Below are positions 147 through 13,897 of a stretch of DNA of 15,050 nt, one piece after another. The stretch lies in NCBI GenBank assembly GCA_017560705.1, contig JAFZEK010000129.1, positions 1-15,050 of the forward strand, in the 5' to 3' direction. This DNA comes from Bacteroidales bacterium. GTDB taxonomy: Bacteria; Bacteroidota; Bacteroidia; Bacteroidales; P3. Under the pieces are notes generated by a model. That model made no database searches. It was not told where the DNA came from and worked only from the letters and a program-made list of their open reading frames with translations. A program made the translations under genes and the position numbers. Position 1 is the first letter of the stretch; each line of letters begins with the position of its first letter.

Positions 147-505
147 TGTAGCAAATCTGTTTTTTTCATTTATGTAGGCAGCTTACTAAGTAATTACATC
201 CTTTATCCATCGTCTTGCTCTTTTTCCTTAGCCCCCGTCAGACCGTTTTTTCCCTATTTTTGGCACACCGTAGCAGACACCAAAAAAAACATATCTTTCC
301 ATCAATATCCAATAACTATCATCACTACGATGTACATTTCTAGAAGTTGCCTCTATAAATATAATACCAATAAAAAGTGCCAAATATTACAGGCCTCTCC
401 TTAATTAACATCTTTTATGCTTTGAGCTTCGCGAGACGAAAGACGAAAGACGAAGGGATTTTGCTGTAGAGAGAGAGAGAGAATAAAGAGGGTATAGAGA
501 GAGTA
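147..505. other. Intergenic region with one element-end-like sequence and a GA-rich stretch
   Basis: No convincing gene is seen. The plus-strand frame at 117-404 overlaps the start of the sigma factor in the opposite direction and has no recognisable content. Bases 335-352 (CATTTCTAGAAGTTGCCT) resemble the right end of the 275-bp element family. Bases 420-460 hold short GACGAAA repeats, and 468-504 is a purine-rich (AG)n tract directly abutting element copy 1. Confidence 0.6.
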
Positions 506-780
506 AAGGCGACTTCTAAAAATTGCTTTGTAGGTGGTTTGCGGAATTTCGCTAGAAAGATTTCTACTTTCTTTTGACCCATCATAGCGGGCTATGCGAC
601 CCCAAAAGAAATAGAAAGATTTCGGTGAAAAACGCAAACGTTGCGATTAAGCGAGTAAAGAGCAATGCCTAAGCATTAGCTATTTCGAGCGATAGCAACA
701 TCGACGAAGTCAACGCACACAAAAGTTTAAAGAAGATTTCTTCTATCTTACTAGAACGTGGAATTTTTAGAAATTACCTT
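506..780 (+). mobile_element. 275-bp inverted-repeat element, copy 1 (type A)
   Basis: Left end AAGGCGACTTCTAAAAATT and right end AATTTTTAGAAATTACCTT are near-perfect inverted repeats of each other. Inside, from left to right, are a long hairpin at about 561-617 whose tip is CATAGCGGGCTATG, then a 75-bp core at 637-711 containing AATGC-CTAA-GCATT, then a tail. The size, short inverted ends and lack of a transposase gene fit a MITE-like non-autonomous element. Frames through it on the minus strand (401-637) only reflect the repeat. The right flank is TA-rich, but a clean target duplication cannot be identified. Copy 2 is almost identical. Confidence 0.8.
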
Positions 781-1165
781 ATATTAACATCCCTGTATTT
801 AACCTGTAAAAGGCTTATTTCCCGCCTTCGAACACGAAAAGAAACGTACAACGCAAGGAAAAAGACTTATCAATACTATGCCATTGATTATCAACACCAA
901 CAGTTTTTCACCATACTTCTAAAAAGTGACTACGACAACTACATCCGGAGGGAATTATATCTACATCACGTAATAGTCATACTTAGATCGGGAGAGCGTG
1001 AGACTTTCATGGCGTAGCCACGGCACTTTCACAGGCAAAGTGCCGTAGTTTTATGTGCAAAACTTGGGGTTTTCGCCGTCTTTTTCGGGCAAGAAATCCA
1101 CCGCGTTTTAACATTTATCATCCCCCCTTTAACATTCATATCTTTATCCTTATGTTATAACAATT
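781..1165. other. Spacer between two type A element copies; possible gene remnant
   Basis: On the plus strand a frame is open from the end of copy 1 (781) to a TAG at 1015-1017, about 78 codons, without an early ATG. It could be a gene tail cut off by copy 1 or simply chance. I do not recognise the product. A hairpin at 1020-1046 follows it immediately. The remainder (1050-1165) shows nothing recognisable. Confidence 0.4.
1020..1050 (+). terminator. Possible rho-independent terminator in the spacer between copies 1 and 2
   Basis: ACGGCACTTT and AAAGTGCCGT form a 10-bp perfect stem with a 7-base loop, followed by AGTTTTA. The T tract is weak. The stem begins three bases after the stop of the possible gene remnant ending at 1017, which is mild support for that frame having been a gene. 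Confidence 0.5.
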
Positions 1166-1439
1166 AAGGCAACTTCTAAAAATTGCTTTGTAGGTGGTTT
1201 GCGGAATTTCGCTAGAAAGATTTCTACTTTCTTTTGATTGAGCATAGCGGGCTATGCGATTGAAAAAGAAATAGAAAGATTTCGGTGAAAAACGTAACGT
1301 TGCGATTAAGCGAGTAAAGAGCAATGCCTAAGCATTAGCTATTTCGAGCGATAGCAACATCGACGAAGTCAACGCACACAAAAGTTTAAAGAAGATTTCT
1401 TCTATCTTACTAAAACGTGGAATTTTTAGAAGTTGCCTT
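1166..1439 (+). mobile_element. 275-bp inverted-repeat element, copy 2 (type A)
   Basis: The ends AAGGCAACTTCTAAAAATT and AATTTTTAGAAGTTGCCTT are perfect 19-bp inverted repeats. The internal order is the same as in copy 1: hairpin with CATAGCGGGCTATG, then the 75-bp core at 1296-1370, then the tail. It differs from copy 1 mainly in the hairpin shoulders (GATTGA instead of GACCCA) and in a one-base deletion before the core. Both sides carry TA next to the ends, which fits a TA target duplication but is ambiguous. It lies about 125 bp beyond the terminator of the gld/RluA operon. Confidence 0.85.
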
Positions 1440-1552
1440 ATATAAGCACAAAGACGTGCCGCCGGTGCATCTCTACACGAGGTGAATTTTATCCGGTGTA
1501 TATTGCAGTATATATATATACGGGCGTATCGCATACGTCCCTTACGACAACC

Positions 1553-1603
1553 TCCGAAAAACAAAACGTGCCTTCCTAGCATATAGGCTAAAAAGGCACG
1601 TTT
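1553..1603 (-). terminator. Rho-independent terminator of the gldF-to-pseudouridine-synthase operon
   Basis: On the minus strand AAACGTGCCTT pairs with AAGGCACGTTT (stem arms 1564-1574 and 1593-1603), with an extra inner TAGC/GCTA pairing. A T-rich run (TTTTGTTTTT) follows at 1563-1553. It starts 11 bases after the stop codon of the pseudouridine synthase gene. Confidence 0.88.
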
Positions 1604-1613
1604 AAAATATCTG

Positions 1614-2495
1614 TTAGCGTTCCACCAAATCGATGAACGGCTGAGGAATGGGCAGTTCAAATTCCATTTCTTTTTGGTTGACAGGATGGACAAAAGCAAG
1701 CTTATAGGCATGTAGGGCCACCCTTTTCAAAGGGTCGTTGTCGCTACCATATCTCATATCGCCCACGATAGGGTGTTTCAAATCCTGCATGTGCACACGT
1801 ATCTGGTTTTTCCTACCCGTTTCGAGCCTCATCTCCACAAGTGAGTAGCGAGGTTTACGCTTTAGAGTTTTGTAGTGTGTTATGGCCAGTTTTCCGCCGT
1901 TGTCGGTAGGCGAAGAGTAGGTGATGAACATCTTATTATCCTTCAGCCACGACTGCACAGTGCCGTATTCCCTTTCCATAAAGCCTTCCACCACGGCGAT
2001 GTAGCGGCGTTCGGCCACCAGGTTTTGCCAGTCTCTTTCGAACATCAGACTTATCTTTTTATCTTTGGCAAAGATAAGTAGGCCAGATGTGTGCTTGTCC
2101 AGACGGTGTACGGTGTGTGCACGGCAACGCTGGCGAGTGAACTCAAAATACTTGTTCAGCACCTTCTGAGCCGAATCCTCGTCGGTATAAGAATTAGTAA
2201 CAATGCCTTCTTTCTTTTCTATCACCACTATGTACTTATCCTCATACACTATGTTCATCCACTTGCTTGTAAAGCGTCGTTTCTCGGCTTTGTTGCCAAT
2301 CCTCACCACCATGGCGGGTTCCAGCACATAGTTGTACTTCGTCACCACGTCGTCGTTCACCCACACAATGCCGTTGGCAAGCATGTTCTTCACCTTGGTG
2401 CGGCTTATGCCCTGCATCCTTTCCATCAGAAAAGTCATAAGCTCCGCTTTCTCTTTCACCACAAAGTGTGGTCCTTTACGTTCTTTTCTTTCCAT
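1614..2495 (-). CDS. RluA-family RNA pseudouridine synthase
   Basis: This 293-residue protein converts specific uridines in rRNA or tRNA to pseudouridine in the cytoplasm. An N-terminal S4-like RNA-binding part (about residues 15-70) precedes the RluA catalytic domain. The family signature HRLDKHTSGLLIFAK sits at about residue 130, with Asp133 as the catalytic nucleophile. A second conserved block, GRKNQIRVHM, and a C-terminal HPxxGDxxYG-like segment (HPIVGDMRYG) follow. Length and domain order are normal for the RluD/RluA group; which uridine is modified cannot be told from sequence. It is the last gene of the operon, 37 bp after the DUF4340-like gene, and is closed by a strong terminator. 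The start is the ATG at 2495, which leaves the S4-like part complete. Confidence 0.93.
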   Translation of the reverse strand: MERKERKGPHFVVKEKAELMTFLMERMQGISRTKVKNMLANGIVWVNDDVVTKYNYVLEPAMVVRIGNKAEKRRFTSKWMNIVYEDKYIVVIEKKEGIVTNSYTDEDSAQKVLNKYFEFTRQRCRAHTVHRLDKHTSGLLIFAKDKKISLMFERDWQNLVAERRYIAVVEGFMEREYGTVQSWLKDNKMFITYSSPTDNGGKLAITHYKTLKRKPRYSLVEMRLETGRKNQIRVHMQDLKHPIVGDMRYGSDNDPLKRVALHAYKLAFVHPVNQKEMEFELPIPQPFIDLVER

Positions 2496-2532
2496 ATCCT
2501 AGTAGTGTGTTGTTGGTGAGTAAAAATAATAA

Positions 2533-3597
2533 CTATCGGCCCAAGAAATAGCTAGCCGGCTGCAATATGTTGTCGAACACGTAGTATTGTATAAGCACAG
2601 TGTCGGTATTATCTAGTATTGCATACTGTCTGTTCACATCAAAAATCTCGGACAATTCGGACCCATCCAACTGTTTTATTAGTTCAGGATTGGTAAACTT
2701 AATATATGTTCTTAGCGTTCTTACGCGGTCGGCCATGTCGGTAATAGTAAGCACAAATCCCGGAGGGCGAGCGAAAGTAGTGTCTAGCTCTACCTTAGGC
2801 ACTACGGAGGCATACTCATCGAAGTTCAAATTCACAAACGACGATAGTAGTTGAGCCACTCTGGCTGTGTCGAAATTAGGCTGAACGGTGTTGGACTGCA
2901 ACATCAAAAAGTCGAACGACTCGCCGTTACGCACCACTTCGAATGACTCTTGTGGCATTTGAGGTATTTCAATCTTTACGGATTTTAGGTCTTGCACATC
3001 ACAGTCCACAATCTTACGAGTACGCCATAGCGGTGGATTGGGGTTGAAGCGAGGAGTGAGGAAACCTCTGAAGCCGGGTATATGTATAATGTATGGCACT
3101 TCGTCGCCTTCGCGGAACATGAAAGTACCCATGTTGTCCTGTGTTTCGCTACCTACATAGTAGGTCGTAGTAAGCTTTTCTTTTGGGAAAAGGCGTAACT
3201 TTCCACCAAACCAATCGATGAGATATACCTTCTGATACACTTCCACCTTTATGCTGTTTACCGAAAGGTTTTTGATAATATTAGGTATAGCATTGCGGTT
3301 CACGTGTTGTCTTATTCTCATGTCGTGCAAGGTTTCGAGTAGCATATCCACTAATGGCTGATTGGCAGGATACATGCTGTTCACCAGCCAAGCGGTGTCG
3401 CTACCTTGAGGTCCTACCCTTTCCAACAGCAAGTTTACATCTAGCTTGTTCGATAGGTATAGTTTTGTTATAGCGTCTACATTCTCTATGTGGTAGTCTT
3501 GTTTCAGCGTTGCCGACTTAGATTTTGTTTTCACAACAACGAAAGCCACCAATCCAAGAATAGCCACCGCACATATTATTATCCAATTTTTCTTCAT
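2533..3597 (-). CDS. Membrane-anchored DUF4340-like protein of the gld operon
   Basis: About 354 residues. I place the start at the ATG at 3597 (MKKNWIII) because the longer frame to 3621 would begin with TTG. One N-terminal membrane helix (about residues 4-23, rich in I, V, A) is followed by a large, probably periplasmic domain with no cysteine lipobox. Proteins annotated DUF4340 are commonly encoded directly after GldG-type genes in Bacteroidota, and both position and architecture fit. It probably works with the GldF/GldG transporter, but its biochemical role is unknown. The gldG stop lies about 33 bp upstream. The family assignment leans partly on context, because I see no short diagnostic motif. 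Confidence 0.72.
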   Translation of the reverse strand: MKKNWIIICAVAILGLVAFVVVKTKSKSATLKQDYHIENVDAITKLYLSNKLDVNLLLERVGPQGSDTAWLVNSMYPANQPLVDMLLETLHDMRIRQHVNRNAIPNIIKNLSVNSIKVEVYQKVYLIDWFGGKLRLFPKEKLTTTYYVGSETQDNMGTFMFREGDEVPYIIHIPGFRGFLTPRFNPNPPLWRTRKIVDCDVQDLKSVKIEIPQMPQESFEVVRNGESFDFLMLQSNTVQPNFDTARVAQLLSSFVNLNFDEYASVVPKVELDTTFARPPGFVLTITDMADRVRTLRTYIKFTNPELIKQLDGSELSEIFDVNRQYAILDNTDTVLIQYYVFDNILQPASYFLGR

Positions 3598-3630
3598 GTT
3601 ATATGTCGTTTTTTTTATCAAGTTTTATTC

Positions 3631-5424
3631 TTATTTCTTTTTATATCTGTTCTTTCTTACAAGAGTTATCACCACACCGGCTATCACCACTAAGGCTATA
3701 GGCACAGCGGTGTTCAGCACTTGGAATGTGGGTCGTTGATCTTTCACCTTGGCCACATTGAGCTTTCTTATCTTTATCTCTCTAGAACGAGCCTCCATGT
3801 AGTCCTCGTCGCCACATAGGTAGTTGATGGCGTTCAGTATAAAAGTTTTGTTGGCATACATAGTGTTGGTGTATCGGTCGTAGCCCAGAGGATAGGCGAA
3901 GTTTTGCCTATAGTTGAAAGCGTTCTTAATGATGTCGCCGTCGGCTATTACTATCATTTTGTTAGGTTCGCCCTCGCTACGGTATCCCATTTCGGGCAGG
4001 TCTGTAAAGGCAGGAGTAAGCCTGTTCTTCCATGGCGATTTAAAGTTGCCCTCCAAAAGCACCGCCACAGGCAAGTTGCTCTTGTTGAAAAGGCGACCAT
4101 CAGGCTCGGTGCGAGCCACGTTGAGGTCTACCACAGCAGGAGCATTCACCACTCTGGAATATTCCGATGTGGCAAGAAGCACAGTCTTCTTTATGTCGTT
4201 GTCTATAAGGTCGAGGCTGTTTACGAACTCTGTTCTTATCACATCCAAGTTTTTCACTATAGGGTGTTTTGCCAAAGGCACAATCTCGGGGAAGTAGAAC
4301 CATGGTCTGAACTCTATCTGAGGGTTATTGCCCATGCTTCCACCGGCCATAGGGATAGGCATACAGCGTATATCCATCACCAGGTTTTGGTTCACCCTTA
4401 CACCGTAAGTGAACATCATTTCGTCGAATCCCAAACCCAACGGCATACGCATAGCCATGGTTTGGCTGCGAGTGGAAAGGCTGTCCATCTCTATATCCAA
4501 GCCATCTACAAGCCATAGCACACGGCCACCATACATCACAAATTGGTCTATGATATACAAGTCCTCGTCGCTGAAAGGTTGTCGGGGCTTAGGTATAACC
4601 AAAAGTTTGAACTTATTGTGGAAAGTAATTTCGGTGGAATCGTTGGGGTTCACCCTGCGTTCGGTCAGTGCGTTCACATTGCCGTTTATCGTTATATTCT
4701 CCATGGAGTAGTAGTCCGTAAGGGCCAACTGAATGTCGTAAATATCATGACGTTCAAGCTCGCCATGACCCTGAAGGAAAGCAATTCTTTCTTTCTCTAC
4801 ACGAGCCAAACGGCGAATGGCATCGGTAAGAGTATATTCCAACGCCTGCACAGAGTTGTTTATCAGCTCCACGTCGGACACGTAGCGTTGGCCTAGCAGC
4901 AGCTGCACCGAGGTCTCTTGACCTTTATATAGCACGTCGGCAGCAGGAATAACAAGTTGTTGTTTTATGCCATCGGGAGTTTTAATCTCCACCTTGCTAG
5001 GCTGTATACCCTTTTGTGCCAGCTTTTGGTAAAAGACTTTTTGCTCCTGAGCATTGTCGAAATCCGTAGGGTTCACAAACTCGTATTCTATGTATTTGTT
5101 GTAAGCCCTGAACTGGTTCAGCATCTCTTTGGTCTCGTTCTGTAGCTTCTTAAAATCGGGAGGCAGCTCTTTGCCTTCCAAGTACACACGCACCAGCACC
5201 GTCTCGTCCACATTCTTCAGCAAGCGTTTGGTAGCATTCGACAGCGTATAGCGTTTTTCCGACGTAAGGTCGAAGCGAGTATACACATAGTTGCCTATTA
5301 TATTCAAAAAGATGATAATAAGAACTCCTGCAAAAATCTCTATAAGATTAGAATGCTTTATGCTTCTTTTTTGCACCGAATCCTGATTCTTTCTCTTGAA
5401 AATCTTTATATCTCTAAGTTTCAT
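3631..5424 (-). CDS. gldG: GldG, accessory subunit of a GldF/GldG ABC transporter
   Basis: The protein has 597 residues: a basic N-terminal tail, one membrane helix at about 28-47, a large extracytoplasmic domain of the ABC_transp_aux type, and a C-terminal helix near 570-590 ending in RKNRYKKK. Visible family features are RFDLTSEKRYTLS just after the first helix, FLQGHGELE near the middle of the domain, and a later YIIDQFVMYGGRVLWLVDG segment. In Flavobacterium, GldG with GldF and the ATPase GldA forms an ABC transporter needed for gliding. Many non-gliding Bacteroidota keep gldFG, where the substrate is not known. It follows gldF by 42 bp in the same operon. The ATPase gene is not in the window. 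Confidence 0.93.
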   Translation of the reverse strand: MKLRDIKIFKRKNQDSVQKRSIKHSNLIEIFAGVLIIIFLNIIGNYVYTRFDLTSEKRYTLSNATKRLLKNVDETVLVRVYLEGKELPPDFKKLQNETKEMLNQFRAYNKYIEYEFVNPTDFDNAQEQKVFYQKLAQKGIQPSKVEIKTPDGIKQQLVIPAADVLYKGQETSVQLLLGQRYVSDVELINNSVQALEYTLTDAIRRLARVEKERIAFLQGHGELERHDIYDIQLALTDYYSMENITINGNVNALTERRVNPNDSTEITFHNKFKLLVIPKPRQPFSDEDLYIIDQFVMYGGRVLWLVDGLDIEMDSLSTRSQTMAMRMPLGLGFDEMMFTYGVRVNQNLVMDIRCMPIPMAGGSMGNNPQIEFRPWFYFPEIVPLAKHPIVKNLDVIRTEFVNSLDLIDNDIKKTVLLATSEYSRVVNAPAVVDLNVARTEPDGRLFNKSNLPVAVLLEGNFKSPWKNRLTPAFTDLPEMGYRSEGEPNKMIVIADGDIIKNAFNYRQNFAYPLGYDRYTNTMYANKTFILNAINYLCGDEDYMEARSREIKIRKLNVAKVKDQRPTFQVLNTAVPIALVVIAGVVITLVRKNRYKKK

Positions 5425-5466
5425 TTCAACAGTTATTTTCTATTAGTAAACAATATATATAATCTT

Positions 5467-6204
5467 CTACTTTTGCCACTTAGCGGATTGTAGCACCAAG
5501 CGAGTAAGCATAACAAACAGAGCAATGACGCTGAGGAAGTAAATGACATCGCGAGTGTCTATAACCCCACGGCTTATAGACTCGTAATGATAACGCATAC
5601 CCAACGACCTTACAAAAAGATTCAACGAACCGAAGATGTCCATATTATACAGCGTTTCGAAACCCAGATAGCAGAACACCGAAAGCAATACCGCAATGAT
5701 AAAAGCCACAATTTGATTGGTAGTAAGCACCGACGAGAAAAGGCCTATAGCCACAAAAGCACTACCCAAGAAGAGCAAGCCAATATAGGAGCCTACAACA
5801 CCTCCGGTGTCGATGTTGCCCACAGGGTCGCCCAAAAGGTAGACACTTACGTAGTATACCACCGTAGGCAATATGGAAATAAACACTAGCGTGATGCCGG
5901 CAAGCAACTTGGCAAGTATTATTTTATACTCGGAAAGTGGCTTGGTAAGCAACAGCTCTATAGTGCCGTTCTTTTTTTCTTCGGCAAACATACGCATGGT
6001 AATAGCAGGAATAAGAAAAAGGAACAAGAAAGGCCCAATGAGGAACAGCCCGTCCAAGCCCGCATAACCATAGTCCAAAATATTAAAGTCGGAGTTGAAA
6101 ACCCACAACATAAGTCCGTTCAAGAGAAGGAAAACAACAATGGTAAGATAACCCATCAACGACGAAAAAAAACTTCCCAACTCCTTTTTGTATAATGTAA
6201 GCAT
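5467..6204 (-). CDS. gldF: GldF, ABC-2 type permease
   Basis: This 245-residue integral membrane protein has about six hydrophobic helices, beginning MLTLYKKELGSFFSSLMGY. The cytoplasmic segment MRMFAEEKKNGTIELLLTKP is typical of ABC-2 permeases: the EE-x-GT-x-ELL-x-T-x-P pattern follows the second helix. It should form the membrane channel of the transporter completed by GldG and an ATPase encoded elsewhere. It is the first gene of a four-gene minus-strand operon. A Bacteroidota -7 box (TACTTTTG, 6286-6293) lies 82 bp upstream. Length is normal for the family. Confidence 0.93.
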   Translation of the reverse strand: MLTLYKKELGSFFSSLMGYLTIVVFLLLNGLMLWVFNSDFNILDYGYAGLDGLFLIGPFLFLFLIPAITMRMFAEEKKNGTIELLLTKPLSEYKIILAKLLAGITLVFISILPTVVYYVSVYLLGDPVGNIDTGGVVGSYIGLLFLGSAFVAIGLFSSVLTTNQIVAFIIAVLLSVFCYLGFETLYNMDIFGSLNLFVRSLGMRYHYESISRGVIDTRDVIYFLSVIALFVMLTRLVLQSAKWQK

Positions 6205-6285
6205 AATGTATAGTTTTTGTTTTTACTCTAGTTATTAACGACATAGCGTTGATATAATTGCATACCAACACAATATTTCAACATG

Positions 6286-6293
6286 CAAAAGTA
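6286..6293 (-). promoter_or_regulatory. gldF: Candidate -7 box for the gldF operon
   Basis: TACTTTTG on the minus strand matches the Bacteroidota TAnnTTTG -7 element and is 82 bp upstream of the gldF ATG. No -33 TTTG at the right distance is evident, so this is only moderately supported. Confidence 0.5.
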
Positions 6294-6343
6294 CGGAAAA
6301 AAAATGACAATTCACTGTAGTGGTCTTTATTTCAAGGAGATTT

Positions 6344-6460
6344 CTAATAATTAGGTCCATCTTCGGCAAGCATAATTCTCTTAGCAGTGGCAGCATCATA
6401 GGCACCATTACCACCTACGAAACACTGTGTTTCACCGGCAAAACCTACTATCACAGTCAC
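6344..6460 (-). CDS. Possible small ORF (38 residues) or gene remnant between ferredoxin and gldF
   Basis: A GTG at 6460 on the minus strand opens a frame of 38 codons to a TAG at 6344-6346. The product begins MTVIVGFAGE and ends KRIMLAEDGPNY. A purine-rich GGAAAGGGGGG stretch six bases before the GTG resembles a Shine-Dalgarno site, which is unusual in this phylum. The composition (Gly/Ala-rich, charged tail) looks like protein rather than random AT-rich sequence. An in-frame TAG lies two codons upstream of the GTG, so if it is a remnant its N-terminal part is lost. I do not recognise it. It lies right after the ferredoxin terminator and 140 bp before gldF. Confidence 0.3.
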   Translation of the reverse strand: MTVIVGFAGETQCFVGGNGAYDAATAKRIMLAEDGPNY

Positions 6461-6486
6461 CTGCTACCCCCCTTTCCACAAGGCAC

Positions 6487-6526
6487 AAAAAAAGCGATTG
6501 AAAGAAATCTTACAATCGCTTTTTCT
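6487..6526. terminator. Bidirectional rho-independent terminator after the ferredoxin gene
   Basis: AAAAGCGATTG and CAATCGCTTTT form an 11-bp perfect stem with a 12-base loop. A and T runs on the two sides make it functional in both directions. On the minus strand it lies about 20 bases after the ferredoxin stop codon and separates that gene from the gldF operon. Confidence 0.9.
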
Positions 6527-6542
6527 AGTTTTTAATCTTTAA

Positions 6543-6710
6543 TTATGCAGGATTGATAGCACCTACAGGACATACGTCTGCACAAGTTCCACAATCAACA
6601 CATTTATCAGCATCTATTGAATAGATGTCGCCTTCAGAGATAGCTCCTACAGGGCATTCATTGATACATGTGCCACATGCTGCACAATCATCGCTAATTT
6701 TATAAGCCAT
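6543..6710 (-). CDS. 2[4Fe-4S] ferredoxin (55 residues)
   Basis: A minus-strand frame from ATG at 6710 to TAA encodes MAYKISDDCAACGTC at the start. It carries two CxxCxxCxxxCP clusters: C9-C12-C15-C19-P20 and C37-C40-C43-C47-P48. Each binds part of two [4Fe-4S] clusters, and spacing and length match clostridial-type ferredoxins. It is a soluble low-potential electron carrier, probably for pyruvate or 2-oxoacid:ferredoxin oxidoreductases and related anaerobic enzymes, none of which are encoded here. It is monocistronic: its own promoter lies at 6742-6770 and a terminator follows at 6487-6526. Confidence 0.97.
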   Translation of the reverse strand: MAYKISDDCAACGTCINECPVGAISEGDIYSIDADKCVDCGTCADVCPVGAINPA

Positions 6711-6741
6711 TTCTATATGTTTTAGGGTTAATAATCGTTTG

Positions 6742-6770
6742 CAAAGATAGCTATTTTATTTCTATACCAA
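6742..6770 (-). promoter_or_regulatory. Bacteroidota-type promoter of the ferredoxin gene
   Basis: On the minus strand, TTGG (6767-6770) and TATCTTTG (6742-6749) are 17 bp apart. This matches the -33 TTTG / -7 TAnnTTTG consensus of the primary sigma factor in this phylum, 32 bp upstream of the ATG. Confidence 0.75.
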
Positions 6771-6913
6771 GTGATTTTTTGCAATATTTTTTTGCACCGC
6801 CACGCAATCATTTGTATAACAAACAACTATACACAGTAGAATATGTATGCTTTCATGTTTAAAAGTCTCTACTGCACAGCATTCGCAATGCACAAAATGC
6901 TTTTTCGATAGCT

Positions 6914-7903
6914 TTATTGCAAGTTTTTCAACAAATCGCCCATAACTCTTCTGGCAGAGGCGTTTTGATATAGTATCTTATATGTTGCTTCCACTATAGG
7001 CATCGACACTCCTAGCTGAGTTCTGGTTTTCTCCATACACTCTGTAGCAAAATATCCTTCGGCTATCATCTTCATCTCTAGCTGTGCCCCTCTTACGGAA
7101 TACCCCAAACCTATCATATTCCCAAACATTCTGTTGCGGCTATGCTGTGAATAGGCTGTCACTAGTAGGTCGCCCAAATAAGGGAAGCGGTCCAAGTTCC
7201 GTCCTTCCATAGGATTTATGCGGCTTACGAATGTTTCCATTTCCTGTATGGCGTTGGATATAAGCACGGCAAAAAGGTTGTCGCCGTAGCCCAAGCCCTT
7301 GCAAATACCAGCAGCCAAAGCATAGATGTTCTTTAGCACTGCGGCATACTCTATGCCATGTATGTCGTCGGACACTACGGTGTTCACATATCGGCACGAC
7401 ATAAACTCGGACACGTAAGCTGCCAATTCGGCATTCTTAGAGGCCACAGTAAGATAGGTGAGTTTTTGCCTTGCCGTCTCCTCGGCATGCGATGGCCCAC
7501 TGATGACAGACATCCGCGAATAGTCTATCCCAAATTTATCATGAAAATAATCGGCAACAATCTGGTTGGTTTGAGGCACTATGCCCTTTATGGCAGAATG
7601 CACATTCTTACCCTCGAACATCTCAGGAGTAGTGTTCTCCAACGAACAATCCAAAAACGCCGACGGCACTACGAACAACAAATCATCGGATTTGGCTATA
7701 ACATCATTTATATCCGCATAGAAATTTATACGATTTATATCAAAATCTACTTCACTTAAATATGTGGGGTTGTGACCTGTTTCCTGCAGCCCTTCTATTA
7801 TTTCAGGCTCTCTTATCCACCAATTTATTATAGCATCAGTATGCTCCATCACTATCTTAGCAACGGCAGTAGCCCAACTTCCACTTCCAAATAATCCTAT
7901 CAT
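6914..7903 (-). CDS. gpsA: Glycerol-3-phosphate dehydrogenase [NAD(P)+]
   Basis: This 329-residue cytoplasmic enzyme reduces dihydroxyacetone phosphate to sn-glycerol-3-phosphate, the backbone for phospholipids. The N-terminal Rossmann fold begins IGLFGSGSWATAVA, a GxGxxA dinucleotide site. HSAIKGI gives the conserved Lys106, and SGPSHAEE lies at about residues 145-152. YAAVLKNIYALAAG contains the catalytic Lys191, followed by GLGYGDN. The length is standard and the ORF is intact from the ATG at 7903. It is separated from the ferredoxin by about 200 bp that contain the ferredoxin promoter, so the two are probably independent transcripts. It is divergent from sodB. Confidence 0.96.
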   Translation of the reverse strand: MIGLFGSGSWATAVAKIVMEHTDAIINWWIREPEIIEGLQETGHNPTYLSEVDFDINRINFYADINDVIAKSDDLLFVVPSAFLDCSLENTTPEMFEGKNVHSAIKGIVPQTNQIVADYFHDKFGIDYSRMSVISGPSHAEETARQKLTYLTVASKNAELAAYVSEFMSCRYVNTVVSDDIHGIEYAAVLKNIYALAAGICKGLGYGDNLFAVLISNAIQEMETFVSRINPMEGRNLDRFPYLGDLLVTAYSQHSRNRMFGNMIGLGYSVRGAQLEMKMIAEGYFATECMEKTRTQLGVSMPIVEATYKILYQNASARRVMGDLLKNLQ

Positions 7904-7966
7904 TATTATTCTTATCGCTTATTTTACAGTCGTTTGTTGTAATATTACTCTTATTATAAATATTTG

Positions 7967-7974
7967 CAAAGTTA
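7967..7974 (-). promoter_or_regulatory. gpsA: Candidate -7 box for gpsA
   Basis: TAACTTTG on the minus strand fits TAnnTTTG and lies 63 bp upstream of the gpsA ATG in the divergent gpsA/sodB intergenic region. No good -33 element is visible. Confidence 0.5.
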
Positions 7975-8105
7975 CACTTATTTCTTGAATAAATGATGCT
8001 TAGTGGTAAAAATTACCTCGCATAGTTTGTCATGCTATCGAACTTTTTTGCGTCATGGATTGTTGATAGTGGCAAAAAATCGATAATAATAAAACATCAA
8101 CGACT

Positions 8106-8690
8106 ATGAACTTTACATTACCCCCATTGCCATACGCTACCGATGCCTTAGAACCATTCTTGTCTAAGCGTACAGTGGAATACCACTACGGCAAACACCA
8201 TGCAGCATACATAGAAAACACCAATAAATATGTTCGAGACACACATTTTCAAAATAGCAACAACCTAGAAGAATTAGTGTTGCACGCCGACGGCATCCTA
8301 TTCAACAACGCTGCTCAAGCCTGGAACCACACCTTCTACTGGCACTGCTTTTCGCCTACCGGCGGTGGCATGCCCACTGGCACCCTGGCTAATAGGATAG
8401 ACCGCGACTTTGGGTCGTTCGACGAGTTCAAGACCAAGTTTGCCATTGCTGCTACCTCGCTCTTTGGCTCGGGATGGGTGTGGCTCGTAGAAAAAACCGA
8501 CGGAAAACTAGAGATTCTTCCTACCGCCAACGCCGAAAACCCTCTACGTTTCGAACGCAACCCTATACTGACATGCGACGTGTGGGAACATGCCTACTAC
8601 CTCGACAAGCAAAACCGACGTGCCGAATACGTAAACGAATTTTGGGACAAAGTGGACTGGAAAGCTGCCGAAAAACGTTTGAAACACTAA
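8106..8690 (+). CDS. sodB: Superoxide dismutase, iron type (Fe/Mn family)
   Basis: This 194-residue enzyme dismutates superoxide to hydrogen peroxide and oxygen in the cytoplasm. The four metal ligands are visible: His27 (YHYGKHH), His75 (AQAWNHTFYW), and Asp158 and His162 (DVWEHAYY). Gln71 just before the second histidine ligand and the Thr in LTCDVWEH are features of iron-type rather than manganese-type enzymes. Relatives in Bacteroidales are often cambialistic, so manganese use cannot be excluded. The sequence begins FTLPPLPY, as usual in the family. It stands alone on the plus strand, divergent from gpsA. The upstream 200 bp contain no clear operator. An element-end-like motif lies 40 bp after the stop. 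Confidence 0.96.
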   Translation: MNFTLPPLPYATDALEPFLSKRTVEYHYGKHHAAYIENTNKYVRDTHFQNSNNLEELVLHADGILFNNAAQAWNHTFYWHCFSPTGGGMPTGTLANRIDRDFGSFDEFKTKFAIAATSLFGSGWVWLVEKTDGKLEILPTANAENPLRFERNPILTCDVWEHAYYLDKQNRRAEYVNEFWDKVDWKAAEKRLKH

Positions 8691-9030
8691 CAAAGACAAA
8701 CACAATACTTTTCATGATAAGTAGACCATAGGTAACTTCTAAAAGAGTTTGCTCGCCTCCTGTGGCTTTCTCCTATTTTCATGCATCCTCTTGCAAAACC
8801 TGTAATCAAACTACTTGCTGTTACTTTCTATTTGCAGCATTGGCAAACCAAGAAAAACAATAACCAATGCTGCTACTTTTCAAACTCTTAGAACAACCAA
8901 AAAACACATCAAGAATATATGTCGCAAACCACTACTGCATCATACATTATGCACAATGGCACTAGCCCATTCCTAACAATAGCAAACAAAGAAAATACAC
9001 AGAAAAAAATATTTTTCTTTCCCTCTGTCG
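8691..9030. repeat. Intergenic region after sodB with nested inverted repeats
   Basis: No gene is seen. Bases 8730-8744 (AGGTAACTTCTAAAA) match the end of the 275-bp elements apart from C to T at the fourth base. AAGAGTTTG (8743-8751) is repeated inverted as CAAACTCTT (8881-8889), so 8730-8898 looks like a decayed ~169-bp inverted-repeat element. Within it GCAGCATTGG (8834-8843) and CCAATGCTGC (8864-8873) form a 10-bp perfect stem, followed by TACTTTT, which may also end the sodB transcript. Confidence 0.55.
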
Positions 9031-9060
9031 TTTGCTGTTCAAGTTTTTTCCGTAATTTTG
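9031..9060 (+). promoter_or_regulatory. Bacteroidota-type promoter of the small secreted protein
   Basis: TTTG (9031-9034) and TAATTTTG (9053-9060) are 18 bp apart, an excellent match to the phylum consensus. The ATG follows 66 bp downstream of the -7 box. Confidence 0.8.
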
Positions 9061-9126
9061 CAACCAATTTGATTGAGGATTACTCAACAAATTATATGTT
9101 TAACTTATTGTCAGAAAATATTTAAG

Positions 9127-9504
9127 ATGAAAAAAATCTTGTTTGTTATAGTCGCAGTTTTCACTGTTTTGGTGTTCAAGCCAACGACAGCTGCCAATGC
9201 TACGTCCACTACAAACGAGGCTGTAGAAAGCAGCATCTTAAACACCACTCAGGAAGAAATGGAGATAATAAGTGGCAACAGAATGCTACTGCCACCATCC
9301 ATGAACGCCGTGAGCATAGTGCCGCCAATGAGTGCTACGAGCAAAACCTCGTCGCAAAACATATATAAGAATGCTCAAATACGACACTTGGATGTGGTGA
9401 ATGCCCAAATACACCTCCAAAAAAAAATACAACAACATCATTATAAAATAATATCTCAGGCTGTAAACTACTACATATTTTTCCTGAGACGAATACGAAT
9501 ATAA
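9127..9504 (+). CDS. Small secreted protein of unknown function
   Basis: I place the start at the ATG at 9127, giving 125 residues. A longer frame with an upstream ATG at 9073 is possible but would put non-signal sequence before MKKILFVIVAVFTVLVF. That segment is a clear signal peptide, with a likely cleavage in the TTAANATS area. No cysteine follows it, so this is not a lipoprotein. The mature part is Ser/Thr- and Asn-rich, then basic, with a hydrophobic, arginine-ended tail (YYIFFLRRIRI). I recognise no domain. The strong promoter upstream argues that the gene is real. It is probably monocistronic, because 230 bp with several hairpins separate it from the next gene. Confidence 0.6.
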   Translation: MKKILFVIVAVFTVLVFKPTTAANATSTTNEAVESSILNTTQEEMEIISGNRMLLPPSMNAVSIVPPMSATSKTSSQNIYKNAQIRHLDVVNAQIHLQKKIQQHHYKIISQAVNYYIFFLRRIRI

Positions 9505-9734
9505 ATCTTTTCCATTTACCTTTATTATCTTTCATCTGCCGAACCTAGGTTTCGCAGATGGCTCGTGGGCATCCTCTACAATGCCACACCTAGATGGTGT
9601 GCTGCACCGGCAGGGAGCTTTCATTGCCTACACCCTTCAAACAAGGATTTTATCCGGCAAGCTATACTTTATAGCTATGCTTGGAAAGTACAATCAAAAA
9701 AAATAAACAAACAAGAAATTAAACACATAAAGAA
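9505..9734 (+). other. Intergenic region with three successive hairpins
   Basis: Three inverted repeats lie here. The first is a 28-bp near-palindrome (9533-9560, centred on AACCTAGGTT, 12 of 14 pairs Watson-Crick). The second is CACACC-5-GGTGTG (9585-9601). The third is AGCTATA-CTT-TATAGCT (9660-9676). No protein and no consensus promoter is seen. It may be the 3' end of the upstream gene plus a structured leader for the next. Confidence 0.5.
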
Positions 9735-10256
9735 ATGGAAAACAACTTTAAAAATATAGATAAACACATTTATTCCGCATCATCGGACATTGCAAAAGGT
9801 TACAAACACATACTATGGGCGTTTATATGCACCTTGATAGGAGCCATAGCTCTATGGCTATACATGAACTACGAATACATAGCACTGCACCCCACATGGT
9901 CCGGACTTACACTAGGCATAGTGATAATAGGAGCATTTTCAGCATGCACCATTATATGCTACTACACCTTTGGCGACTGCCACTCTCCATACTACAAACC
10001 TACCAAAGAACAACTATGTCGCGAGGAATGCTACTTCTCTTCGTCCAATGCCGACAAGGTAAGCCAAAGCATCAACGAAAAGAACATTGCTGCTTTAGAC
10101 AAATTGCCTAAAAGCATAGTACCTCAAGTGGTAGTGATAAAATATTCCAACGACGACAATTCTGTAATGGCAATACAAGCCTTCGACAACGGCGACGGCT
10201 TGATGACACCCATCACCGACATCGTTATCTGCAACAAACTAACTCAAAACATCTAA
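9735..10256 (+). CDS. Two-helix membrane protein of unknown function (paralogue A)
   Basis: This protein of 173 residues has a short cytoplasmic N-terminus and two membrane helices (about residues 27-46 and 58-80). A soluble domain of about 90 residues follows, containing YYKPTKEQL near residue 90 and ending ITDIVICNKLTQNI. The layout and several positions align with the next gene: a YxPT turn after the second helix, an aromatic/charged helix, then a strand-turn-strand part with a DD/ND pair. I do not recognise the family. It lies upstream of paralogue B and nhaD on the same strand, separated from paralogue B by about 200 bp that contain an element-end-like motif and a large hairpin. Confidence 0.72.
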   Translation: MENNFKNIDKHIYSASSDIAKGYKHILWAFICTLIGAIALWLYMNYEYIALHPTWSGLTLGIVIIGAFSACTIICYYTFGDCHSPYYKPTKEQLCREECYFSSSNADKVSQSINEKNIAALDKLPKSIVPQVVVIKYSNDDNSVMAIQAFDNGDGLMTPITDIVICNKLTQNI

Positions 10257-10266
10257 AAACAACTTC

Positions 10267-10281
10267 AGGTAACTTCTAAAA
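10267..10281 (+). repeat. Solo element-end-like motif after paralogue A
   Basis: AGGTAACTTCTAAAA is identical over 15 bases to the copy at 8730-8744 and matches the terminal inverted repeat of the 275-bp elements except for one base (T for C). It begins 11 bases after the stop codon. No matching right end with a full element is present. Confidence 0.6.
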
Positions 10282-10284
10282 AAA

Positions 10285-10330
10285 AGGTTCAGCTCCAACT
10301 GGACTATAAAAGCCAGATGGGGCTGAACCT
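10285..10330 (-). terminator. Large hairpin with U tract on the minus strand
   Basis: AGGTTCAGCTCC (10285-10296) pairs with GGGGCTGAACCT (10319-10330) with one G-T wobble, and CTGG/CCAG pair inside. On the minus strand the stem is followed by eight T residues, so it would terminate minus-strand transcripts. On the plus strand no T run follows. No minus-strand gene lies to its right before the lipoprotein gene, so its role is unclear. It may instead be a structured element between paralogues A and B. Confidence 0.5.
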
Positions 10331-10454
10331 CACAAAAAAACTAATAAAAAACAACTGAATTACAATGACTATTGGCTTAATGCTACTCTTTTGACACAAA
10401 TCTTTTGAGGCATTTGCCCTATATTCATTGTAGCTAAAAAAAAGAATAATACAC

Positions 10455-10994
10455 ATGGAAGACTTCGAAAAAATAGAAAATAAAATAAAAGAGATGACAA
10501 CCCACAATATAGTGGCAAAAAAGAAAAGTCCTATTTCGTCCATAGCATTGAGCTTGGCAGGTATAGTTATAATATTTTTAGGGTCGTCAAAAATAGTAAG
10601 TAACGACATTATGGAAATGTCGTTCATGAGCGTTGGAGCCATAGCAGGATTATACGGATTGGCCAAACTGCTGATAGTGGCACAAAAAGAGTCCGTAGAT
10701 TATGTGTACGAACCAACAAACAAGAAACTAAAATCGCACAAGATTTACATCAATGCCAACGACAGGATAAAGATGGATAAATTCATCCAAAACAACGACT
10801 ACTCTATGCTGCAAAGCATAGGCAAAGAAGTAAGCTCAGGCAATATGCTGCACCTCTTCGGCACCGACGACGGCGAAATATTCGTGTTCCAAATGGCAGA
10901 ATACGTTCCCCACACTTTCGTGCCGGCATCGCCTGTGGTAGTGTTGCGTAACAACGAAGCTAAAAATATGCTAGAATTTATTAATAAAAAATAG
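10455..10994 (+). CDS. Two-helix membrane protein of unknown function (paralogue B), cotranscribed with nhaD
   Basis: This protein has 179 residues. A charged N-terminus is followed by two membrane helices (about residues 27-45 and 54-76) and then a soluble domain starting VDYVYEPTNKKL. Near the C-terminus are GTDDGEIFVFQMA and PASPVVVLRNNEA. The domain aligns in outline with paralogue A: the YxPT turn, a polar helix, and a DDG/DDN turn followed by a hydrophobic strand. The stop codon is 7 bp before the nhaD ATG, so the two are almost certainly one transcript. That suggests a role linked to the antiporter or its membrane environment. The family is not recognised. Confidence 0.75.
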   Translation: MEDFEKIENKIKEMTTHNIVAKKKSPISSIALSLAGIVIIFLGSSKIVSNDIMEMSFMSVGAIAGLYGLAKLLIVAQKESVDYVYEPTNKKLKSHKIYINANDRIKMDKFIQNNDYSMLQSIGKEVSSGNMLHLFGTDDGEIFVFQMAEYVPHTFVPASPVVVLRNNEAKNMLEFINKK

Positions 10995-11001
10995 ATAGGC
11001 C

Positions 11002-12351
11002 ATGTTTTACACAATCCTCATCATCTTTGTTTTAGGCTACATTTGCATAGCACTTGAACATCCGCTGAAGGTAAACAAAACCGCCACAGCCCTAGTGCTA
11101 GGCGTAGTGGTATGGACACTCTATTTATTAGGAGGTCCCGGCATTTATGAATTTACCAATTTCTCTGCAGGCTTCGATGCCTTCAAAGCTGCACATCCCG
11201 ATGTTGCTCATCCATTCATAGACTACATTGTGAACCACGAAATGTTCGACCATTTGGCAGAGATAGCCGAAACCCTATTCTTCCTTCTTGGAGCTATGAC
11301 TATAGTCGAAGTCATAGACCGCCATCACGGTTTCCGCATCATCACCGACCTCATACGAACTCGCAATGTAGTGAAACTTCTATGGCTGCTAGCCATCATT
11401 ACCTTCTTCCTTTCGGCAGTATTGGACAACCTAACAACCACCATAGTTATGATCTCACTGCTTCGCAAACTCGTTTCGGACAAGAAAGACCGTTGGTTCT
11501 TTGCTGGCATTATAATCATAGCTGCCAACGCCGGCGGTGTGTGGTCGCCGATTGGCGATGTCACAACCATCATGCTTTGGATAGGCAACAAAATATCTGC
11601 TAGCCAAATAATAATGAAAACCTTTGTGCCAAGCTTCGTGTCGCTCATCGTTCCTTTGATATTCACCTCGTTTGCGATGAAGCACAAAGCCAACACCATG
11701 CCCGAAATCGACGACTGTCAAAAGTCGATGGTGCCATCGTGGCAACGCAACTTAATATTCTGCGTAGGCATTGGAGCATTGCTCTTCGTGCCTATTTTCA
11801 AGACCATCACCCACATGAAGCCCTACATGGGGGTGCTGCTTGGCCTTGGAGTGCTATGGATAATAACCGAAGTGATACACCGCAAAGAAAACGAAGAAAA
11901 CAAGGATTTGCACATCGCCGCCATCATATCACGTATAGATACACCTAGTATACTATTTTTCTTAGGAATCCTTTTGGCAGTGGCAGGGCTGCAATCTGCC
12001 GGACATTTGTCGCTCCTAGCCTCCGGACTAAACGAGGCATTTGCAGGCAACTTCCTCATCATCGATGTGGTGATAGGCGTGCTGTCGTCAATCGTGGACA
12101 ATATACCATTAGTGGCCGGAGCCATGGGAATGTACGATTTTCCAATGGATCACCCATTCTGGACATTCCTAGCCTACTGTGCAGGAACAGGCGGAAGCAT
12201 ACTCATCATAGGCTCCGCAGCAGGAGTAACAGCTATGGGAATGGAAAAGATAGACTTTATATGGTATTTGAAAAAGATAACGCCTTATGCTCTCATAGGC
12301 TACCTAGCAGGTGCCGGAACCTACATGCTTATGGATTTAATTCTACACTAA
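11002..12351 (+). CDS. nhaD: Na+/H+ antiporter, NhaD type
   Basis: This polytopic inner-membrane protein of 449 residues, with about 11-13 helices, exchanges Na+ (or Li+) for H+. It belongs to the ion transporter superfamily that includes arsenite permeases. The hallmark segments are LDNLTTTIVMISLLRK (about residues 135-150) and the following ANAGGVWSPIGDVTT. A second repeat unit has IVDNIPLVAGAMG near residue 370, and GTGGSILIIGSAAGV follows. The paired DN motifs in the two halves fit the internal repeat of this fold, with acidic residues in ion binding. Start and length are normal. It directly follows paralogue B. The stop is 19 bp before element copy 3, with no separate terminator visible between. 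Confidence 0.93.
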   Translation: MFYTILIIFVLGYICIALEHPLKVNKTATALVLGVVVWTLYLLGGPGIYEFTNFSAGFDAFKAAHPDVAHPFIDYIVNHEMFDHLAEIAETLFFLLGAMTIVEVIDRHHGFRIITDLIRTRNVVKLLWLLAIITFFLSAVLDNLTTTIVMISLLRKLVSDKKDRWFFAGIIIIAANAGGVWSPIGDVTTIMLWIGNKISASQIIMKTFVPSFVSLIVPLIFTSFAMKHKANTMPEIDDCQKSMVPSWQRNLIFCVGIGALLFVPIFKTITHMKPYMGVLLGLGVLWIITEVIHRKENEENKDLHIAAIISRIDTPSILFFLGILLAVAGLQSAGHLSLLASGLNEAFAGNFLIIDVVIGVLSSIVDNIPLVAGAMGMYDFPMDHPFWTFLAYCAGTGGSILIIGSAAGVTAMGMEKIDFIWYLKKITPYALIGYLAGAGTYMLMDLILH

Positions 12352-12370
12352 TATACCCAACTGTAAAATT

Positions 12371-12645
12371 AAGGCAACTTCTAAAAATTGCTTTGCAAGT
12401 GGTTTACGGAATACTGACTTCGTCGATGTTGCTATCGCTCGAAATAGCTAATGCTTAGGCATTGCTCTTTACTCGCTTAATCGCAACGTTCTTGAGAAGA
12501 TTTCTACTTTCTTTTGACCCATCATAGCGGGCTATGCGATTGAAAAAGAAATAGAAAGATTCCAAGAAAAAAACGTAAACCACGCAAAAGTTCTTTTATT
12601 TCATGATAATATTTCTTATAACGTGGAATTTTTAGATGTTGCCTT
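12371..12645 (+). mobile_element. 275-bp inverted-repeat element, copy 3 (type B, core inverted)
   Basis: The left end is AAGGCAACTTCTAAAAATT and the right end is AATTTTTAGATGTTGCCTT, an 18 of 19 inverted match. The CATAGCGGGCTATG hairpin is present in the same orientation as in copies 1 and 2. The 75-bp core (12416-12490), however, is reverse-complemented and sits to the left of the hairpin. The tail (CCACGCAAAAGTTC area) differs from type A. The element fills the whole space between the convergent nhaD and lipoprotein genes, and its right end overlaps the lipoprotein's last codons. TA lies next to both ends. Confidence 0.85.
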
Positions 12646-13311
12646 AAGCATCTTGGTCAATTTCTTGGCAGCTTTTGCATCCAAATCAAAGATAGGATAA
12701 TTGGTGAAACTTATTGTAAATGTTTTTTCTTCGCTGCTACCCATATTGCCATAGGTTAATGTGTTCCATATATCCACCATTGTGGCAGTGATGTTGGCAG
12801 AGATTCTTTTATTCACCAAGTCAATTTCAGTTATTGTTACCGTCATATTGTCGGACACCCAGCCTGTAGCGAATGTTTCGCCATCTAGATTGGTAGTTCC
12901 GGTGAAAAGAATTATAGCAAGATCTCCTTCTTCGCCGGTAAGTATGTTGCCTTCTTGATTTTGCGTTCCTTCTTCGCCAAGAAATCCAACTATAACAGCA
13001 TCTTGAGGTATACCGTCTCCTATAAAATCGAAAGTGTACATTATACGACAAGCCTGTTGTTGAGTCGAAACGTCTTTTGTTCCTACAGCCATAACGAATG
13101 TTTCTTCTTCATCAGCTTCATATCCTACCCAAAAGCTCTGCGGAATCCAATCAACAGCACCGTCGAAACCAAACATAACTCCACTTGGAAGTTCAATATC
13201 CGGATTGTCGCCAGAGTTTGTACCTTCTGTTGGGTCATCAGGTTTGCAAGCTGTAAAAGCCAAAAGGCTTACTACTAAAATAAAAGCCAAAAATATTAAT
13301 GTCTTTTTCAT
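12616..13311 (-). CDS. Lipoprotein of unknown function, bracketed by type B elements
   Basis: The start is placed at the ATG at 13311 (MKKTLIFLAF), giving 231 residues; the frame extends upstream to 13359 but without a signal sequence. A lipoprotein signal peptide ends in LLAFTAC with Cys21 as the lipid attachment site, followed by a short linker KPDDPTEGTNSGDN. The mature part is acidic and rich in beta-type segments (VIVGFLGEEG, LAIILFTGTTN, TISFTNYPIFDL), suggesting a beta-sandwich exported to the envelope. I recognise no family. The last residues, KATSKNSTL, and the TAA stop are read from the right inverted repeat of copy 3, so the native C-terminus has probably been altered. A consensus promoter with a palindrome lies upstream. 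Confidence 0.78.
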   Translation of the reverse strand: MKKTLIFLAFILVVSLLAFTACKPDDPTEGTNSGDNPDIELPSGVMFGFDGAVDWIPQSFWVGYEADEEETFVMAVGTKDVSTQQQACRIMYTFDFIGDGIPQDAVIVGFLGEEGTQNQEGNILTGEEGDLAIILFTGTTNLDGETFATGWVSDNMTVTITEIDLVNKRISANITATMVDIWNTLTYGNMGSSEEKTFTISFTNYPIFDLDAKAAKKLTKMLKATSKNSTL

Positions 13312-13356
13312 TGTGTTATGTGTTTTAATAATTAATTTATTACTTCTTTCGGGATG

Positions 13357-13388
13357 CAAAATTACGTATAATATACGTATTGCACAAA
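13357..13388 (-). promoter_or_regulatory. Promoter of the lipoprotein gene with overlapping palindrome
   Basis: On the minus strand, TTTG (13385-13388) and TAATTTTG (13357-13364) are 20 bp apart, matching the Bacteroidota consensus 46 bp upstream of the ATG. The spacer holds a perfect 17-bp palindrome, TACGTATAATATACGTA (13363-13379), which overlaps the -7 box and could be a repressor site. Confidence 0.72.
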
Positions 13389-13396
13389 TATTATTT

Positions 13397-13669
13397 AGGC
13401 AATTTCTAAAAATTGCTTTGCAAGTGATTTACGGAATACTGACTTCGTCGATGTTGCTATCGCTCGAAAGAGCTAATGCTGAGGCATTGCTCTTTACTCG
13501 CTTAATCGCAACGTTCTTGAGAAGATTCCTACTTTCTTTTGACCCATCATAGCGGGCTATACGACCCCAAAAGAAATAGAAAGATTCCAAGAAAAAAACG
13601 TAAACCACGCAAAAGTTCTTTTATTTCATGATAATATTTCTTAGAACGCGGAATTTTTAGATGTTGCCT
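13397..13669 (+). mobile_element. 275-bp inverted-repeat element, copy 4 (type B, core inverted)
   Basis: It has the same layout as copy 3: left end AGGCAATTTCTAAAAATT, inverted 75-bp core (13441-13515), CATAGCGGGCTATA hairpin, shared type B tail, right end AATTTTTAGATGTTGCCT. It is in the same orientation as copy 3 and lies just upstream of the lipoprotein promoter. Two substitutions in the AATGC hairpin of the core and one in the hairpin tip distinguish it from copy 3. Confidence 0.85.
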
Positions 13670-13695
13670 ATAGAAACACTATTGGGGTGAATATC

Positions 13696-13736
13696 AAAAA
13701 GAGGCGAGAAATCACTTCCGACTTCTCACCTCTTTT
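13696..13736 (-). terminator. Terminator of the tRNA-Gly/tRNA-Leu transcript
   Basis: AAAGAGGCGAGAA (13698-13710) pairs with TTCTCACCTCTTT (13723-13735) apart from one position that is a G-T wobble in the minus-strand transcript. On the minus strand the stem starts two bases after the tRNA-Leu 3' end and is followed by TTTTTGAT. The plus strand has only a short T run. Confidence 0.85.
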
Positions 13737-13737
13737 G

Positions 13738-13821: not shown

Positions 13822-13897
13822 TTTATACTTCCGAAGCACATCTTATCTCGCATGCTTCTCATCAAAAAAAGACCCGAAAAATCTCCGAGCCTTAATG

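Follow-up and report, generated by a model that had tools for sequence, protein, structure and literature searches.

Introduction

The window analysed here, a stretch of 15,050 nucleotides from a Bacteroidales bacterium (contig JAFZEK010000129.1, positions 1 to 15,050), contains four copies of a short element with inverted ends, a central hairpin and a 76-bp core. The core stands on the right arm of the element in two copies and on the left arm in the other two. Which of the systems already described does this family resemble? The miniature inverted-repeat transposable elements (MITEs) of Porphyromonas gingivalis have IS5-type ends and a tandem-repeat interior. Like the present family they are short, repeated, non-autonomous elements of the Bacteroidales with ends resembling those of the IS5 family. 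Their end sequences are different, however, as is the tandem-repeat interior, and the available text describes no module on either arm of a palindrome (PMC4596501). The Correia repeat enclosed elements of Neisseria, which are also MITEs with inverted repeats, are reported to be able to invert. There it is the element that inverts, whereas here the outer parts are fixed, one module is found on the other arm and no flip at any one locus was seen (PMC10969869).

What precedents exist for exchange between copies or between arms? In Galileo, a foldback-like transposon of Drosophila, chimaeric copies that give rise to subfamilies are ascribed to exchange (PMC3573991), and our own reading likewise invokes chimaeras formed by exchange between copies. 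On the other hand, Galileo is a eukaryotic element of the P-superfamily, and no side-branch module at mirror positions is described in the portion of the report at hand. Its chimaeras are bounded by different sequences in place of identical duplications, while in the present family a perfect duplication flanks one of the five like-ended copies. Template switching between inverted-repeat arms, in which one arm templates the other, leads to homogenisation of the arms and to inversion of the spacer (PMC8604942). Our proposal shares with it the use of one arm as template for the other, but the events in that account are short (inverted spacers, 2-5 substitutions), whereas the unit copied or exchanged here would be a 76-bp module. 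Bacterial interspersed mosaic elements (BIMEs) and mosaics of repetitive extragenic palindromes (REP) are also made of palindromic modules, which in BIMEs alternate in orientation; terminal repeats with target duplication are not described for them in the parts of the sources at hand (PMC2817692, PMC3733652). In the literature searched we found no description of a MITE with a module at mirror places on both arms.

On balance we favour the view that these elements form a family of foldback MITEs whose 76-bp module lies on the right arm, the left arm or neither, and whose forms interconvert by exchange or copying of arms between copies rather than by a flip in place.

Two placements of one core

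The cores of copies 1 and 2 each match the core of copy 3 in inverted orientation at 76 of 76 nucleotides (100%), and that of copy 4 over the same length at 97% (table 1). The central hairpin keeps one orientation throughout the four copies. The inverted ends comprise 20 perfectly matched nucleotides in copy 2 and 21 nucleotides at 95% in copy 3; going by the GG..CC ends, the element proper is about 2 bp shorter on each side than the copy coordinates listed. Since the identity is 76 of 76, and since both architectures recur in the genome of the window and in related genomes, the pattern lies far beyond chance. The two placements reported by the first-pass annotation are thus real, and the core is indeed reverse-complemented and on the opposite side of the hairpin; its length, given as 75 bp, was one base short, and the coreless 199-bp form, the quasi-palindrome and the copies with mixed parts escaped that annotation. 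The description 'inverted and moved across the hairpin' is better replaced. The element being a quasi-palindrome able to fold from end to end, the core occupies a near mirror-image place on the opposite arm of the palindrome.

Table 1. Coordinates of the four element copies in the window, with their hairpins and cores.
Feature	Coordinates	Strand	Remarks
Copy 1	506..780	+	architecture A, with right-arm core; flanking 4-mers TAAA / TTAT, non-matching
Central hairpin CATAGCGGGCTATG of copy 1	583..596	+	
76-bp core of copy 1	637..712	+	AACGTT end towards hairpin; from inverted match
Copy 2	1166..1439	+	architecture A; flanking 4-mers TTAA / TTAT
Central hairpin of copy 2	1243..1256	+	
76-bp core of copy 2	1296..1371	+	from inverted match
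Copy 3	12371..12645	+	architecture B, with left-arm core; target duplication TTAA / TTAA, perfect
76-bp core of copy 3	12415..12490	-	AACGTT end towards hairpin; from inverted match
Central hairpin of copy 3	12523..12536	+	
Copy 4	13397..13669	+	architecture B; flanking 4-mers TTTA / TATA
76-bp core of copy 4	13440..13515	-	97% to cores of copies 1 and 2
Central hairpin of copy 4	13548..13561	+	last base A

How general are these two forms? The genome of the window (G000) is a metagenome-assembled genome (MAG) of 1.78 Mb in 363 contigs, 75% complete, and it was compared with five relatives of its genus (G001-G005). In 100 fetched contigs and the window there are 100 end pairs, with modal end-to-end lengths of 195 (9 pairs) and 270 (27 pairs). 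Consensus sequences were derived from 63 of these pairs, hand-picked from the module map with mixed copies, nested pairs and fragments excluded. They measure 275 bp for architecture A, with the core on the right arm (35 copies), 274 bp for architecture B, with the core on the left arm (9 copies), and 199 bp for a coreless form, N (19 copies). On alignment, the consensus sequences of A and B each equal N plus an identical 76 bp, on opposite arms.

The wider classification holds 183 rows; of 110 others set aside, 76 had no hairpin or core and 34 were duplicates. Because three retained rows each overlap one that covers the same place, they represent about 180 copies. This sample is enriched in the core, the relatives having been fetched mainly by core matches, of which part of the 144 was fetched. 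A hairpin with one left (L) and one right (R) end is present in 152 rows. A full core lies on the right only in 91 of them, always in + orientation, and on the left only in 16, always in - orientation; 36 are coreless and nine carry remnants: six on the right, two on the left and, in L212, one on the left opposite a full core on the right. One further row has the hairpin in the opposite orientation together with a right core, and in 30 more the ends are alike or no hairpin was recognised. In each of the 107 copies scored it is the AACGTT end of the core that points to the hairpin; these copies are related by descent and are not 107 independent events. No full double-core copy was seen among the 152 rows; 9.7 would be expected were the arms independent.

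Among the scored copies, architecture A occurs in all six genomes of the genus and B, defined by a hairpin and a full left core, in four of the six, while right-end cassettes are common to A, B and coreless copies. The suggestion in the first-pass annotation of two subfamilies built from a common set of modules is thereby supported. A further core-bearing form, about 211 bp long, has no recognised hairpin (L166:7498-7709, L171:1371-1582, L336, L391 and others); it was probably produced by deletion between the AGAAAGATTTC repeats that flank the hairpin.

Near mirror-image sites on a quasi-palindrome

Where on the arms does the core lie? As a single strand the element folds end to end, with z scores of -6.8 for A (window copy 2), -7.1 for B (window copy 3) and -8.8 for N (L243); in each case none of 200 shuffles folds as well. 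By this fold the halves are inverted copies of one another for most of the element's length, as in foldback elements. In the predicted folds of A and B the core forms a side branch, and alone it folds weakly (z -2.1; 3 of 200 shuffles are as good).

Junction distances were measured in 109 core-bearing copies, 16 left-arm and 93 right-arm. At the inner right-arm site, for which both junctions were read in nine copies (G001, G002 and G005), the arm motif stands 9 nucleotides from the core; at the left-arm site (16 copies) it stands 12 nucleotides away. With the motifs aligned by hand, the distances are 11 nucleotides at the inner right-arm site and 12 at the left-arm site. On the outer side there are 11-12 nucleotides to CACGC, that is, 7-8 to AAAGCAC, compared with 8-9 to AAATCAC. 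In this hand alignment the inner site of the right arm mirrors the left-arm site within 1-2 nucleotides on both sides.

Might the core be a separate small mobile element that entered a coreless MITE on two or more occasions, once in each arm, at a target common to both arms? A and B do resemble clean 76-bp insertions into N, and with a target within both inverted-repeat arms the mirror positions would follow of themselves. Another right-arm site exists 10 nucleotides away, and short direct repeats can be read at the right-arm core ends (CAAA..CAAA in the A consensus, AACG..AACG at the inner sites). However, as read from the sequence, the left-arm site has no comparable direct repeat at the core ends, and one core end is not the inverted repeat of the other. 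Nor was a clean free core found in the parts searched. Of 98 core matches in 101 sequences of G000, four have neither flank recognised; three of these are partial or diverged and the fourth, L182, has flanks that are arm-like. Among 108 junction rows, five of them from G000 loci, a single one has neither flank recognised. We regard the insertion of a mobile core as unlikely.

The agreement of the mirror sites to 1-2 nucleotides would also be expected of a symmetric ancestor with a core on each arm, from which A, B and N arose by loss of one or both cores, a perfect 76-bp hairpin being unstable. Core remnants on both arms, including that of L212, and the absence of full double-core copies speak for such losses. 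Against them, the consensus of the coreless arms bears no obvious scar of a lost core, L212 can equally be read as a recombinant of A and B, and the outer right-arm site demands an extra step. This history appears quite unlikely to us; along with the twofold insertion of a core that was once mobile, it is nevertheless a close rival of our reading.

Stability of the core at matched loci

If the core is found on either arm, does it change sides at a given locus? Both flanks could be matched between species at eight loci: L252/L253, L344/L363, L350/L427, L385:4535/L427:631, L385:12379/L426, L365/L392, L384/L401 and L368/L431, the last with one right flank longer by about 240 bp. In all eight the core, or its diverged remains, lies on the same side. 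The side was judged from the junctions, except for L385 and its partners, where equal length and a flank identity of 99.9-100% were the guide; these three pairs, between G001 and G002 with near-identical flanks, are nearly uninformative, having had little time to change.

An active rearrangement of the core, the other possibility raised by the first-pass annotation, gains no support here as an in-place event. Programmed inversion, or phase variation, would flip the core where it stands, and one module in two orientations within a fixed frame is what it would produce. But the core changes arm along with its orientation while the hairpin and the ends stay, its two ends, as read from the sequence, do not repeat each other in inverted form, and the matched loci keep their side. 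In-place inversion was rejected on these grounds, and we hold it to be extremely improbable.

Between L385 (G001:C88) and L426/L427 (G002:C93) the flanks compared are 99.9-100% identical in two species, pointing to recent transfer or to mis-binning.

Mixed copies and shared parts

Five copies have two like ends: L162, L200 and L203 are L/L, and L156 and L199 are R/R. Three other rows with like ends were excluded as mispaired (overlapping rows at L199, L375 and L433). The flanking 4-mers are mismatched in four of the five, and in L199 they form a perfect TTTA/TTTA pair. In L153, L194, L200 and L203 a core junction of A type on one side is combined with one of B type on the other. The right end is also variable. 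A cassette of about 29 bp occurs there in at least five dissimilar versions (our own reference set), and cassettes R1, R2 and R3 are each present in A, B and N. For the core the copies have a mean identity of 0.95, for the cassette one of 0.53 in A and 0.47 in N.

One shared segment begins inside an element. G000:C232, carrying an A copy, and G004:C23, carrying an N copy, agree at 99.6% over 1446 bp, reaching the end of the compared stretch. The identity starts within the element beside the hairpin; beyond that point the arm (core versus coreless) and the flanks differ. Because the two species are otherwise 73-77% identical (one gene region compared), such shared segments represent recent transfers or mis-binning. 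As to the ancestral side of the L170/L295 junction, the G001 locus L383 is uninformative, its far flanks being without similarity.

Are the mixed forms then assembly artefacts over a repeat present more than 100 times, the remainder being an ordinary MITE family with three subfamilies? Several contigs start or end in elements (for example L003, L030, L041 and L045), and four of the five like-end copies lack a matching duplication. On the other hand, A and B are found in several separate assemblies and at many loci, some with perfect duplications, so that artefact touches at most the mixed copies and some of the junctions. L199, moreover, combines two like ends with a perfect duplication. At one A locus the mismatched pair TAAA/TATA is present in three assemblies (L290, L363 and L367) and is therefore not an error private to one of them. 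We consider it very unlikely that the mixed forms are artefacts and the rest an ordinary MITE family.

Target duplications and a candidate transposase

How do the elements move? The 4-bp flanks match in 72 of 149 elements with GG..CC ends, where 15.1 are expected from shuffled pairs; a second count gave 76 of 160 against 15.5, with no excess at 3 or 5 bp. The 4-mers are mostly of the form T...A: among 160, T is first and A last in 130 and 135 on the left, and in 135 and 130 on the right. In the window one of the four copies, copy 3, has a perfect pair. It looks like an insertion, because at the place corresponding to window positions 12351-12372 the DNA of G002 and G005 (L322, L327) continues uninterrupted and element-free behind the orthologous transporter gene. 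Perfect duplications are present in 32 of 93 A copies and 26 of 34 N copies (p = 4e-5), and in 8 of 16 B copies. The ends of A carry 1.58 mismatches per 34 bp, versus 0.79 for N. With a fixed target duplication of 4 bp above chance, GGCAACTTCTAAAAATT-like sequence at both ends, a length well under 600 bp that cannot accommodate a transposase gene, and high copy number, the family has the features of MITEs.

A frame for an IS5-family transposase (NF033581, 219.7 bits, cut-off 140) lies behind GGTAACTTCTAAAAATT in L313 and is still open where the contig stops. In L314 a second copy stands between GGTAGGTTCTAAAAATT and GGTAATTTCTAAAAATC, flanked on each side by ATAA; its piece scores 120.7 bits with NF033581, below the cut-off of 140. 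At L314:2089-2410 an element with MITE-like ends interrupts the transposase gene of this presumed insertion sequence (IS) relative. The domain PF01609 gave 15 matches across all six genomes, with outward ends of the related type at L313 and at the L314/L319 locus. At L311, L316 and L317 the element ends near such matches were taken as neighbouring MITEs or left unassigned. No IS with GGCAACTTCTAAAAATT ends was found among end pairs 900-3500 bp apart with frames of at least 200 amino acids, judged by eye, in the sequences searched. We infer that an IS5-type transposase probably moves these MITEs in trans. The window also holds two lone end-like sequences, GGTAACTTCTAAAA, at 8731-8747 and 10268-10284, which are nearer to the IS ends than to the MITE ends and have no partner close by.

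Size and distribution of the family

Searches of the genome and its relatives with the ends and the core, as the first-pass annotation had proposed, disclose a large family present in all six genomes of the genus. In G000 the end pattern AACTTCTAAAAATTGC has 276 sites at up to 2 mismatches (reversed control, 0), and the core pattern 83 sites at up to 3 mismatches (control, 1). When 61 genomes, that of the window included, were searched at up to 1 mismatch, each of the six genomes of the genus had at least 50 ends; among the 55 others a single end occurs in each of two, and none in the rest. A weak 34-bp match to the element was found in one genome from another genus. Core matches in G001-G005 number 15, at least 41 (scoring limited to 40 candidates), 32, 30 and 26, respectively, and no core was found in six genomes from other genera of the same family.

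An exact 27-mer of the core occurs at 50 loci in the species collection, all of them in MAGs of Bacteroidales bacterium from the rectum or colon of sheep, water buffalo and yak; the assemblies behind these loci are probably those of G001-G005. A blastn search of the plasmid collection with copy 3 gave no match, and neither an exact 23-mer of the core nor an exact 19-mer of the ends was found in viral contigs.

Proposed exchange between arms and what weighs against it

How might the core have reached its mirror place? In the reading that we prefer, an IS5-family transposase would mobilise the elements in trans. The arms being homologous and inverted, each could pair with the opposite arm of its own element or of another copy; because of this pairing we propose that the core got to the mirror place through template switching or recombination between homologous arms. 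Crossovers in the hairpin arms and in the core would then reshuffle core-bearing and coreless arms, and the dispersed copies may, as a likely consequence, act as recombination sites that rearrange the chromosome. This one process of arm exchange would explain the near mirror placement, the constant orientation, the mixed copies and the shared cassettes.

Several observations weigh against arm exchange. The commonest right-arm site, used by 74 of the 93 right-arm copies, lies about 10 nucleotides further out than the mirror position, and simple arm homogenisation leaves it unexplained; in G000 it holds 35 of the 37 cores on that arm, including those of the window's two A copies. A further 10 of the 93 are irregular or unparsed, and the direct repeats at the right-arm core ends would suit insertion. 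The full double-core form, an expected intermediate, is missing. The ends of the L313/L314 elements, of the type GGTA..TTCTAAAAATT, are similar but not identical to those of the MITEs (GGCA). Perfect duplications in one of five like-end copies, set against 82 of 173 L..R rows, make no clear difference, and the gap in duplications between A and N is partly one of age, since the ends of A are twice as diverged. For both reasons, target duplications were dropped as proof of exchange. All sequences are MAG contigs from six assemblies, many of which end in these elements, and misassembly is the main caveat: the mixed copies and mismatched duplications could in part be wrong joins of repeats by the assemblers, and the recurrent TAAA/TATA mismatch could come from a single substitution.

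Long perfect hairpins are unstable. The missing double-core copies fit such instability.

A wider proposition is tentative and, taken as a whole, somewhat unlikely. In it, foldback MITEs shuffle across the genus, since any arm could pair with either arm of every other copy, the side branch passing from arm to arm and from copy to copy; A, B and N are kept circulating and the double-core form is avoided; and the copies serve as junctions for rearrangement of the chromosome and as edges of DNA exchange between species.

Other features of the window

The two B copies stand in the same direction, and between them lies a predicted open reading frame (ORF) resembling a lipoprotein gene (12616-13359), whose last codons and stop fall within copy 3. 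Frames resembling it stand in a row in G004:C24 (L335). A 10-bp tandem repeat, TTTGTCCYGT, occupies 14452-14531, and short dispersed repeats around CTTCGCAGACGAAAGAG, in at least three copies, are found at 14170-14930.

Scanned with Rfam at the gathering threshold, the window contains two transfer RNAs only, neither of them in the elements. With no Rfam match within the elements, the idea that the core is part of a known RNA was rejected.

Implications

What would these elements mean for the genomes that carry them? If the mixed copies are assembly errors, an ordinary MITE family with three subfamilies remains. The family is a bacterial one in which template switching or recombination from arm to arm can be tracked, for it has many copies in six genomes and the module-bearing arm serves as a marker. 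If exchange is confirmed, small non-coding MITEs would reshuffle themselves and serve as junctions for rearrangement of the chromosome and for transfer between species.

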